Below, piece after piece: positions 16,276 through 24,585 of a stretch of 34,786 nt of DNA. Where the stretch lies: the IMG/VR virus record IMGVR_UViG_3300031688_000063, positions 1 to 34,786 of that record, one strand, 5' to 3'. Source of the stretch: a virus. Each line of letters starts with the position of its first letter. The first letter of the stretch is position 1. The notes beneath the pieces were generated by a model, which saw nothing but the letters and a program-made list of their open reading frames with translations, did no database searches and was not told the DNA's origin. The translations under genes and the position numbers were made by a program.

Positions 16276-16460
16276 CACAGTTCTCCATCTCTAACTAGGC
16301 TAAGGTGCGTCAGTGATTGGCCGTTGGCGTACTGCTGGGCGTACTGGGCAGTGAAGTTATGCTCTGCCTCCATACGTGTTCCCCCTTCCGCGAGAATGGG
16401 CTTGTCATAGCCCATACCAGCAGCAAGCCAAGATCCATCAAGTACCTGTTCAGCGATCAC
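16275..16460 (-). CDS. Small protein, unknown
   Basis: 61 residues from a GTG at 16460 that overlaps the upstream stop (GTGA) and has GGAG 7 bases upstream. It has a Gly-rich start (LDGSWLAAGMGYDKPIL) and a helical, Gln-rich middle (AQYAQQYANGQSL). No family recognised. Confidence 0.55.
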   Translation of the reverse strand: MIAEQVLDGSWLAAGMGYDKPILAEGGTRMEAEHNFTAQYAQQYANGQSLTHLSLVRDGEL

Positions 16461-16927
16461 GCCAACTCTCCACTCATCTGTCGATCTCGGTACTGAGCAT
16501 AAGCGTTATCATCACCCCTAGCCTCCATCATGTCCGTGTGATAACCCTGACAGTCAGCCCACCAGATCTCACACTCAGAAGTGACGTACTTCTCTACGTA
16601 CTCAAGAATGGATTTGTAAATGTCACCCCCGATAAAGTTACAGCACTGGGAAGTCGAAGATGCGTAGGCCAGCGTCATACCTACTGATGAGAACGCGCTA
16701 TCCTGAGATCTCTCTATACTCTCATGCGTATTGCTAATGCTTTTAAGTAAGCTAGAGACTATGGTTTGCCTAGACTCACACAGCGCATCTACCCAAAGAT
16801 CATCCAGAAGTTCTGGCGACTTCATGTAGCCATCAATCCACACCTTCTTGGCATCTTGATAGCCATCATCATGCTGGAACCCAATATCCGCATCTCTTGC
16901 TAGGTCATATAAAGTCTTTGTATCCAC
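16457..16927 (-). CDS. Early protein, unknown
   Basis: 156 residues from the GTG at 16927, supported by GAGGAG 7 bases upstream; an earlier GTG at 16972 lies within the promoter and has no ribosome site. The protein is acidic and helical, with Cys-Cys and Trp-Trp pairs (STSQCCNFIGGD; ECEIWWADCQGYH). Expressed from the second leftward promoter at 16963-16990. No recognised family. Confidence 0.6.
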   Translation of the reverse strand: MDTKTLYDLARDADIGFQHDDGYQDAKKVWIDGYMKSPELLDDLWVDALCESRQTIVSSLLKSISNTHESIERSQDSAFSSVGMTLAYASSTSQCCNFIGGDIYKSILEYVEKYVTSECEIWWADCQGYHTDMMEARGDDNAYAQYRDRQMSGELA

Positions 16928-16962: not shown

Positions 16963-16990
16963 ATATTAACACTAATCCTACTTATGTAAA
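16963..16990 (-). promoter_or_regulatory. Leftward sigma70-type promoter PL2 with operator
   Basis: On the minus strand: -35 TTTACA (16985-16990), 16-base spacer, -10 TAATAT (16963-16968). The word TTAGTGTTA (16967-16975) overlaps the first two bases of the -10 box, exactly as in the two promoters of the divergent control region. It lies just upstream of the gene at 16457-16927 and downstream of the gene ending at 17035. Confidence 0.75.
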
Positions 16991-17034
16991 TACCCTAATT
17001 GGATTTATTTTTACCGAGCTTCCTTCGCGGGTCA

Positions 17035-17256
17035 TTAAAGTGATGTCGTTTCGCATACATCAAAATCAGAAACACTTAACCCAGCCTTGACCAGCGCACT
17101 CAGTCCAGCCTTTTCTGTGGTGAATTTTTTTACTCTTAGCCCAGAGTCTGCCAACTCTACTGCCTTGTCTTTACGGGCCTTATGCCTTGTCGAGAAATCT
17201 TTTATGCCTCTCCCGTAATAGTATGAAACTGATATGGAGTACCAGATACTACTCAT
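17035..17256 (-). CDS. Small basic early protein, unknown
   Basis: 73 residues from the ATG at 17256, preceded by GAGGAGAAGGGAG. A longer frame to 17298 is in-frame but would overlap the upstream gene more and has an Arg-rich, improbable start. SSIWYSISVSYYYGRGIKDF is followed by a basic helix. It overlaps the upstream gene by 8 bases. No family recognised. Confidence 0.55.
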   Translation of the reverse strand: MSSIWYSISVSYYYGRGIKDFSTRHKARKDKAVELADSGLRVKKFTTEKAGLSALVKAGLSVSDFDVCETTSL

Positions 17257-17503
17257 CTCCCTTCTCCTCGCTCTCTGACGTGCAGCTCCTCTCGACACTC
17301 CGCATCATAGCCAGAGCCTCAGTTACGGTCTTGGTGTGGACAAAGCCGCACTCCTTGTCAGGGACGATGTACGGAGCCTTGCAGTATACCCAGTAGCTGG
17401 GCAAGTGGTCGTTGTGCGCCTCACCATACCCGTCATACTCGGTGTGCCAGCTATCGAACTTCGTGGGGTTTCTGTCTATCATCGCTTGTATCTGCTTACT
17501 CAT
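17249..17503 (-). CDS. First gene of leftward early operon, unknown
   Basis: 84 residues. GAGGAAA lies upstream of the ATG. The protein is rich in His, Tyr and Trp in its first half (DSWHTEYDGYGEAHNDHLPS), has three Cys, and ends acidic. It is the first gene behind the strongest leftward promoter (17542-17570), so it is probably made very early. Function unknown. Confidence 0.6.
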   Translation of the reverse strand: MSKQIQAMIDRNPTKFDSWHTEYDGYGEAHNDHLPSYWVYCKAPYIVPDKECGFVHTKTVTEALAMMRSVERSCTSESEEKGDE

Positions 17504-17541
17504 GCTCTTTCCTCGGTCGGTAGTTCACTAACTGAAAATAC

Positions 17542-17570
17542 ATATTAACACTAATCTTTATTAATGTCAA
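17542..17570 (-). promoter_or_regulatory. Leftward early promoter PL1 with operator
   Basis: On the minus strand: -35 TTGACA (17565-17570), 17-base spacer, -10 TAATAT (17542-17547): almost consensus sigma70. TTAGTGTTA (17546-17554 in complement) overlaps the first two bases of the -10. Divergent from and 12 bases away from the -35 of PR. Confidence 0.85.
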
Positions 17571-17582
17571 TACAAATATTCC

Positions 17583-17610
17583 TTGACTGTAAATACGTTA
17601 GTGTTATTAT
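17583..17610 (+). promoter_or_regulatory. Rightward early promoter PR with operator
   Basis: -35 TTGACT (17583-17588), 16-base spacer, -10 TATTAT (17605-17610). TTAGTGTTA at 17598-17606 has the same position relative to the -10 as in PL1 and PL2. It drives the ribbon-helix-helix gene at 17641. Confidence 0.8.
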
Positions 17611-17640: not shown

Positions 17641-17862
17641 ATGGCTGAAATCAGTGAAAAGGAAATGGCGGAAAGAAAGGTGCGTAAACGTCCAGGTCAC
17701 CAAGTGGAACACTTCATAATGAGGATTGATCCCAAGATGAAAGAACACCTTGTGGAGATGTCGAAAGCCAAAGGAATGAATATGAGTGAGTTCATGGTGT
17801 GGATTCTAGGCATCTCGTGGTCGAACTACCAATCCTCGTTAGCAAAGGGTAAATCACTATGA
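17641..17862 (+). CDS. Ribbon-helix-helix regulator
   Basis: 73 residues. After a basic N-terminal arm (RKVRKRPGHQ) comes a short beta strand VEHFIMRID, helix A (PKMKEHLVEMSKAKG) and helix B (NMSEFMVWIL), the RHH/Arc fold. Start at ATG 17641 is supported by AGGGAGAG just upstream; a GTG at 17614 lies only 4 bases past the -10 and is unlikely. Its gene is next to three promoters sharing one 9-base word, so it is the best candidate for the shared repressor or activator and probably regulates itself. The TGA overlaps the next ATG. Confidence 0.75.
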   Translation: MAEISEKEMAERKVRKRPGHQVEHFIMRIDPKMKEHLVEMSKAKGMNMSEFMVWILGISWSNYQSSLAKGKSL

Positions 17863-18293
17863 TGCGAGAGACAGCAGATGACTTAGAAGCAGAGTCCGAG
17901 ATACTTGATATATTCGCTGAACACTTCGGTTGTAGCTGGACAAAGCTGGGTAGCGGCGGCAAGTATAGGATTGACGCTATACTGCACAAAGGCCATAAGA
18001 TGAGGGCTTGGGTGGAGGTTAAAGACTACAAATCTGGCTTGTTCTTAGGGCTTAATGTTCCGAAATATCAAGAAGGTATGGGCCTAGCAGCAGATACTGA
18101 GATCCCCTTTCTACTTGTATTCAGGCACGAAGGCAAGATTGGATACATCAAGGTACATGAGGGTGGAATGTGGTCTGACAGCCACGTTGACATAAGGATG
18201 GCAGGAGGAACACCGCCTAATCGCCCAGCCAATGATGATGACTATGAGCCAATGGTTATGTTCAGAGAAACCTATGTTATTTGGCTGAAATAG
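17859..18293 (+). CDS. PD-(D/E)XK nuclease-like protein
   Basis: 144 residues. Helix with Glu21, then GKYRIDAIL with Asp39, then AWVEVKDY with Glu53 and Lys55: the D-ExK arrangement of the restriction-endonuclease/resolvase fold. It starts within the stop of the RHH gene (ATGATG), so the two are translated together. Role open: resolvase, nuclease of host DNA, or toxin-like partner of the RHH protein. The call relies on the motif pattern. Confidence 0.6.
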   Translation: MMRETADDLEAESEILDIFAEHFGCSWTKLGSGGKYRIDAILHKGHKMRAWVEVKDYKSGLFLGLNVPKYQEGMGLAADTEIPFLLVFRHEGKIGYIKVHEGGMWSDSHVDIRMAGGTPPNRPANDDDYEPMVMFRETYVIWLK

Positions 18294-18394: not shown

Positions 18395-19123
18395 ATGAAA
18401 CACCCCCCGCGCAACCTTGATCAATCATGCTTTGATTGGCAGAAGATTATTCTCCAGAAAACAGATTTACCTAGCAACGCTAAATTCTTAGCCATGTATC
18501 TCGCATCGTATATGAACATCAACCACGATGTAGCGTGGCCGAGCCAGAAAACCATAGAGCGTGAAACAGGGTTATCCCACCCAACGGTATTAAAGTACCT
18601 CGATTTGCTGATTTCAGAGGGCTGGATAAGCAAACAATCAGGGGATAGAGTGCAGTCAAATAGGTACTGGATTGCCTTCCCAAAAGAGGTAGGTAGCTCA
18701 CTTACCTACGTAACCTCAGAAGAGAAGGTAGGTAAGGAGGTTACCTCTAATAACAATATAATAACAAATACTCTATCTAAGAGATTCACACCGCCTTCAC
18801 TCGAAGAACTGATCGCATATCAAGAAGAAGCCAACATCTCCTTTGATCCTGTCAATTTTATTGATTACTGGGCTTCAATTGGTTGGAAGCGTGGACGCAC
18901 ACAAATGAAAGACTGGAAGGCAACTGCTCGCAACTGGGCAAGGAATGAAAGCAATGGGCAAAATAGACCTCGAAGCAATACAAGCCAAAATCAACCAAAA
19001 CTTACCCCTGCACAGCGAATCGCGGAAAAGCGCAGACAACTTGCCTCCGACCCATCCAATATGGGAACTTTGGCAGAGAATGGCGGAGATGTACGGACAT
19101 ACCTGGACGAGTCAGCAGGGTGA
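18395..19123 (+). CDS. Replication initiator-like protein (winged HTH, O-like)
   Basis: 242 residues. Residues 24-95 form a helix-turn-helix/winged-helix domain (WPSQKTIERETGLSHPTVLK, then YLDLLISEGWISKQSGD), as in phage replication proteins. The C-terminal part has YWASIGWKRGRTQMKDWKAT and ARNWARN, a segment common in phage O/DnaT-type proteins. GGAG lies 11 bases before ATG. The last 179 bases overlap the next gene in another frame. It likely binds the phage origin and recruits the loader. Confidence 0.75.
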   Translation: MKHPPRNLDQSCFDWQKIILQKTDLPSNAKFLAMYLASYMNINHDVAWPSQKTIERETGLSHPTVLKYLDLLISEGWISKQSGDRVQSNRYWIAFPKEVGSSLTYVTSEEKVGKEVTSNNNIITNTLSKRFTPPSLEELIAYQEEANISFDPVNFIDYWASIGWKRGRTQMKDWKATARNWARNESNGQNRPRSNTSQNQPKLTPAQRIAEKRRQLASDPSNMGTLAENGGDVRTYLDESAG

Positions 19124-21446: not shown

Positions 21447-21600
21447 AACGCTCCTCCTCCCTTTGTGCTATTTCAAGAGTAGCGGCATCTAATAAAATAC
21501 GCCTCACCCACTGTTCAAGGTTTTGGCCTTTAATAAGGCGTACCGCCCTTATAATTAGACCTTTTTCGTCATTGGGTAGATTAACTGTTATTTTGCGCAT
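21445..21600 (-). CDS. Small RHH-like protein
   Basis: 51 residues. MRKITVNLPNDEKGLIIRAV and then GQNLEQWVRRILLDAA has the strand-helix-helix pattern of ribbon-helix-helix proteins. It begins in TGATG with the upstream gene and ends with an AGGGAGGAGGAG tract directly before CGT TAA G, which may serve as a ribosome-binding site or frameshift stimulator for the following frame. Confidence 0.55.
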   Translation of the reverse strand: MRKITVNLPNDEKGLIIRAVRLIKGQNLEQWVRRILLDAATLEIAQREEER

Positions 21601-24055: not shown

Positions 24056-24585
24056 GGTATCTATCTCCTACGTGCAGCACAAAGGGGCTGCGTCCTGTCC
24101 AACCATTCTAACAACGTCAATACATAATGCAACTAATCATTTCATTAATTACCTATATATAGGTGACTGTATCTCGGTTGTGTCTGGGTGTGAGTGTGTG
24201 GTTGTGTCTGTGGGTCTGTGTGCCTGTGTGCCTGTGTTGCAACAATGCCCAGCACTTGTTGTTGCTCTTTGTATTGGTAGCGGTTGCCTATGGCATGTCA
24301 TGACAGGCAGTGAACCCTATTTGGTTCTGAACTGGTTTGACTGGATACCCCCCGACCCTTTCTGAAAAATGAATTGTTACTGATACGGACTAAGCCTCAC
24401 ATATTTTTTGAGTTTTTCACTCCCCCGTCTTTCCTAGCTCTCAAGCCCTTGGTTTGCAGTGTCCCTATTTTCCTGCTATTAAAGAACCTCTTCACTGCGT
24501 TACGATCTATTGCTAACGCAAAGTCTTTCCAGCGAGTAGAGCTATGTCTCTTATTTAAATTGTTTGTATTAATAAGGATGGTTAG
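24056..24585. other. 530-base non-coding region before the terminase genes
   Basis: No credible gene on either strand. It holds a perfect 14-base palindrome ACCTATATATAGGT (24151-24164), a G/T-rich tract on the + strand (about 24176-24240), an inverted repeat GCAACAA/TTGTTGC (24239-24245 and 24259-24265), a 10-base palindrome TGTCATGACA (24296-24305) and a C6 run near 24349. The position directly upstream of the terminase genes makes it a candidate packaging (pac or cos) site, and it also holds the accessory-block promoter. Function inferred only. Confidence 0.5.
24105..24132 (-). promoter_or_regulatory. Candidate leftward promoter of the accessory block
   Basis: On the minus strand TTGCAT (24127-24132), 16-base spacer, TAGAAT (24105-24110). 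It faces the 88-residue gene and lies about 50 bases upstream. It lacks the TTAGTGTTA word of the other early promoters. Confidence 0.45.

Follow-up and report, generated by a model that had tools for sequence, protein, structure and literature searches.

A predicted ribbon-helix-helix protein in the Cro slot of a small lytic-type phage and a word shared by its three early promoters

The window considered throughout is an entire viral record of 34,786 bp. A sibling contig that is 94-95% identical (L004, from genome G001) spans the 34786/1 junction with approximately 12 bases between the ends; because this contig runs from the end of the window into its start, the genome is judged complete or nearly so, with circular permutation in the assemblies. 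The sibling contig does not include the early region, having nothing that corresponds to about 12.8-22.4 kb. The phage is small and of a lytic type, and it resembles the HTVC010P-type pelagiphages and the Methylophilales phage Venkman in genome size and in TerL (38-42% identical), a distant relationship. Within the near-complete record, a profile search returned no match to an integrase (PF00589) or to an HTH_3/CI-type repressor (PF01381), the two components that together mark a temperate lambdoid immunity region; the suggestion, made in an earlier sequence-only reading of this DNA, that the phage has no CI-like repressor is supported.

The early region consists of a leftward operon, encoding a Sak-like annealing protein, an exonuclease, an SSB, and an RNA ligase, and a rightward operon, encoding an O-like replication protein, a P-like loader, a methyltransferase, and NinG. 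Farther along, ahead of the late operon, lies a GT-rich, non-coding stretch of low complexity (24140-24260). The features between and around the two operon heads are as follows, where the promoters are matches to consensus -35 and -10 elements and keep the names given to them in the sequence-only reading.

16457..16927, minus strand: ORF of 156 aa with a GTG start, the first gene past PL2
16963..16990, minus strand: PL2 promoter, TTTACA-16-TAATAT, with TTAGTGTTA at 16967-16975; a probable duplicate of PL1
17035..17256, minus strand: ORF of 73 aa, the second leftward gene, between PL1 and PL2
17249..17503, minus strand: ORF of 84 aa, the first leftward gene under PL1, with no family match
17542..17570, minus strand: PL1 promoter, TTGACA-17-TAATAT, with TTAGTGTTA at 17546-17554
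17583..17610, plus strand: PR promoter, TTGACT-16-TATTAT, with TTAGTGTTA at 17598-17606
17641..17862, plus strand: likely ribbon-helix-helix (RHH) gene of 73 aa, first of the rightward operon (the Cro slot), assigned from its predicted fold and from orthologues in the related genomes G002 and G003
17859..18293, plus strand: PDDEXK_14 endonuclease gene, whose start overlaps the stop codon of the RHH gene
18395..19123, plus strand: replication initiation (O-like) protein, the synteny anchor to the related genomes G003 and G012

The sequence-only reading had described three sigma70 promoters with 16-17 bp spacing that share one word over the first two bases of the -10 box, with PL1 and PR divergent and PL2 about 580 bases inside the leftward operon. 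Both parts of this description were confirmed: at PL1, PL2, and PR alike, the -10 box opens with the final TA of TTAGTGTTA, and PL2 lies inside the leftward operon at an offset of 579 bp from PL1. The -35 boxes of PL1 and PR stand back to back with a gap of 12 bp. Of all promoter matches in the window PL1 scores highest, PR shares its score with one other site, and a TG precedes the -10 box in all three. A search of the whole window found three exact copies of the word, two on the minus strand (PL1 and PL2) and one on the plus strand (PR), and no further one. The PL copies form an imperfect dyad, ATTA-GTGT-TAAT, which would be suited to a dimer; in PR the dyad is imperfect as well (GTTA-GTGT-TATT), a point against its being such an operator.

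Bare consensus promoter matches were not more common in the window than in shuffled sequence (4 found vs. 4.4 expected). The expected count of TTAGTGTTA was 0.35 per shuffled window, a 9-mer occurred three times within 700 bp in 3 of 1,000 shuffles, and three promoter-like sites with a common 7 bases 5' of the -10 box occurred in none of 300 shuffled windows, so that a non-random origin of the shared in-register word is supported by these sequence comparisons. Not all three copies carry equal weight. PL1 and PL2 can be aligned over approximately 32 bp, beyond the word itself (GTATT-G/T-ACAT ... GATTAGTGTTAATAT; score 17, against 12 for the best shuffle), which suggests duplicated promoters and means that the two count as about one independent event. 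Additionally, TGTTA or TG-n upstream of a -10 box constitutes an extended -10, a promoter element in itself, and part of TTAGTGTTA can thus be common to the promoters through this role alone. Since PL1 and PL2 are probably duplicated and TG-n is common to extended -10 sites, the independent evidence lies mainly in the match between PL and PR, where at least 7 bases beside the -10 box agree with a chance of about 0.001 per pair (null of extended -10 sites in other phages). The proposal that a single regulator underlies the shared geometry accordingly stands in part: the in-register word is non-random, but some of it is extended -10 sequence and two of its three occurrences look like copies of one promoter.

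The 73-aa product of the first rightward gene is likely an RHH protein, as judged from its predicted structure. An N-terminal strand followed by two helices, in a dimer that contacts DNA through the strand, is the hallmark of the RHH (MetJ/Arc) fold. In the predicted monomer (mean pLDDT 75, at least 90 across most of residues 31-60), an FIMR strand motif is followed by helices at residues 31-43 and 48-68, and residues 22-70 match MazE (MazE6), TacA (TacA1), AtaR, AmrZ, CopG, PutA, and Arc. These structural matches are almost exclusively RHH proteins, with modest Z scores of 4.5-5.8 (4.5-4.8 for the Arc chains) that pertain to the monomer model. Sequence-family matches are all weak, including RHH_1 (PF01402) at an E value of 0.1, below the cut-off, and the Arc-like repressor family phrog_582 at 0.086. 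The nomination of the adjoining RHH protein as the regulator is thus favoured by the predicted fold and by RHH genes at the same place in G002 and G003, and is weakened by sequence matches that fall below their cut-offs. With an RHH-like predicted fold in place of the helix-turn-helix (HTH) domain of the Cro family, the protein is Cro-like by position only: it is the first rightward early gene and is divergent from the leftward operon, as expected of a Cro-type early autorepressor. Its gene starts approximately 24 bp past the predicted PR start, suggesting that it would be autoregulated. A second small RHH-like protein, with a weak DUF6290 match (E 0.03), is encoded at 21448-21600 on the minus strand in a separate leftward operon.

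The slot is filled by different proteins in related phages. Where TerL is 75% identical, in G003 and G002, an RHH gene leads the rightward operon (33 and 32% identity, respectively, with the FIMR strand motif kept), with one small ORF ahead of it in G002. G012 (58% identity in the replication protein) has a small P22_Cro/YdaS-like HTH protein at this position, and more distant phages sharing the Sak gene have small HTH-like proteins there. RHH and HTH proteins thus exchange at this position, which marks it as the place of an early regulator. Searches for nearer relatives of the RHH protein or the replication protein yielded G002, G003, and G012 only, and named phages gave no match by megablast or by tblastn with the RHH protein. 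In two temperate-looking contigs with the Sak region (L354, 2943-4950; L357, 2973-4854), CI-like and Cro-like genes face each other and an RHH-like gene comes after the Cro-like one, according to gene calls judged by eye from translations.

The sequence-only reading had proposed searching related phages for the word at -10 boxes near RHH genes; TTAGTGTTA was absent from every related contig searched. Because no relative shares the word, a phylogenetic footprint and a covariation of protein with operator are both lacking. The divergent early promoters of G003 (L187, 18562-18567) and G002 (L186, 1944-1949) have a layout of their own, in which the two promoters have a single palindromic TTGCAA as their common -35, with a 17-bp spacer each way, an arrangement kept despite differing spacers. 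Because this -35 is shared, polymerase could engage just one of the two promoters at any moment in these phages.

A wider scan of viral contigs found the pattern TTGACW-D-N8-9-TTAGTGTTANTAT at 100 places ahead of unrelated genes, in most cases with a 17-bp spacer; the matches include unrelated phages and the promoter of a cold-shock gene. None of the 45 pattern-carrying records examined had a protein matching PF01402; the window's own RHH protein reaches only E 0.1 with this profile, which makes the negative result weak evidence. Because it occurs at unrelated promoters with no detected RHH protein, the word is a sequence at which real promoters arrive easily, and it does not mark RHH operators in general; the scan is compatible with an operator private to this phage.

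Combined, these results are best explained if a single phage regulator recognises TTAGTGTTA as the core of its operator; this regulator is most likely the product of the first gene under PR, the RHH protein, acting in a Cro-like repression (probability approximately 0.5). The odds that this predicted RHH protein binds the word are likewise about even. The host sigma70 polymerase would fire PL1, PL2, and PR early in infection; RHH dimers would then build up and occupy the spacer and -10 edge of all three promoters, where they would block polymerase binding or melting. Both early operons, along with synthesis of the RHH protein itself, would thereby be lowered, which is the job of lambda Cro. 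The in-register word, the matches to promoter elements, the place of the gene, its predicted fold, and the RHH-HTH exchange in relatives are observations, and the transcription starts, the RHH binding, the sign of the effect (repression), and its timing are inferred. Because no opposing repressor was seen, autorepression fits better than the two-direction switch originally envisaged.

The main rival, itself rather unlikely, is that PL1, PL2, and PR are ordinary extended -10 promoters, sharing TG-n and a short upstream string, of which PL1 or PL2 is a duplicate and PR is alike by chance or descent, with no dedicated regulator. The TG before all three -10 boxes, the alignment of PL1 with PL2 well beyond the word, and the many viral occurrences of TTGAC-N-TTAGTGTTANTAT ahead of unrelated genes are all consistent with it. 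However, the 7-base match between PL and PR next to the -10 box would be a rare coincidence, and the word is missing both at the other promoter-like sites of this phage and from the PL/PR pairs of its relatives. An operator for some other protein is improbable, whether that be the RHH-like product of 21448-21600, a host factor, or a PL-operon protein of the phage that has gone unrecognised. RHH proteins often work far from their own genes and the 21448-21600 product is RHH-like in sequence, but its operon carries no copy of the word, whereas the RHH gene at 17641 adjoins the sites and lies under PR in the usual autoregulatory layout. It is very improbable that the RHH protein binds there to activate the promoters or to set their timing, or that it forms the antitoxin half of a toxin-antitoxin pair. 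The antitoxins TacA, AtaR, and MazE are among its closest folds, and the overlap of its stop codon with the next start recalls such pairs; the next gene, however, encodes a phage endonuclease and not a GNAT, PIN, or RelE toxin, and a site overlapping the -10 box disfavours activation.

Cro-like autorepression by an RHH protein would join several known systems. In phage P22, Arc controls both Pant and Pmnt from a single operator close to the -10/-35 of Pant. Arc, in the immI region, is a small phage RHH protein described as autogenously regulated (Youderian 1982, listed in PMC2629481). The protein of the present phage is similarly small, and autoregulation is predicted from gene position; it differs in standing in the Cro slot of replication and recombination operons, whereas Arc is devoted to the ant moron, next to a CI-type repressor. 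The archaeal-virus proteins F55 of SSV1 and SvtR of SIRV1 are RHH autorepressors at several early promoters and at their own, with sites overlapping core promoter elements (PMC5569661), although their promoters are archaeal and F55 works through tandem ATAGATAG repeats and maintains a carrier state. Arc, F55, and SvtR are thus precedents for the control of several viral promoters by one RHH autorepressor. The likeness to Cro of lambda and P22 lies in the first rightward gene, divergent from the leftward recombination operon, and in the role expected of it, which is to lower PL and PR activity; unlike Cro, an HTH protein, the product is predicted to be RHH, no CI, PRM, or lysogeny genes were found, and the putative sites overlap the -10 box in place of a tripartite operator.

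The new part would be the presence of an RHH protein at the Cro position in an early region of lambda type that has no CI, and its exchange with HTH regulators among relatives; a literature search, with subscription journals mostly outside its scope, brought up no account of this arrangement for the early genes of a bacterial phage. A tentative and somewhat doubtful extension is that in this lytic lineage lambda-type early control has shrunk to one exchangeable autorepressor at the Cro position, here an RHH protein with one site per -10 edge and in relatives another RHH or an HTH protein, the operators changing with the protein. Binding of the RHH protein at each of the three sites would make the region a minimal circuit of early control in a type of aquatic podovirus and a clean case of RHH replacing Cro at one locus, usable for following the co-change of repressor and operator. 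If it does not bind, the region is an ordinary divergent promoter pair with one promoter duplicated.

An inverted pair, TAACACTAA-N28-58-TTAGTGTTA, was also considered as an RHH operator and rejected: of 94 such stretches in viral contigs, approximately half belong to one family of T4-like phages with a conserved hairpin and the rest are chance-like. The T4-like stretches turned up because the search was for an inverted pair. In these phages (L118, L123, and approximately 40 similar loci), a long conserved hairpin, TAACACTAAT-n-TGGCTCCAG...CTGGAGCCA-ATTAGTGTTA, lies between the gp32-like and UvsX-like genes and contains a match to TTGACA-17-TAATAT.
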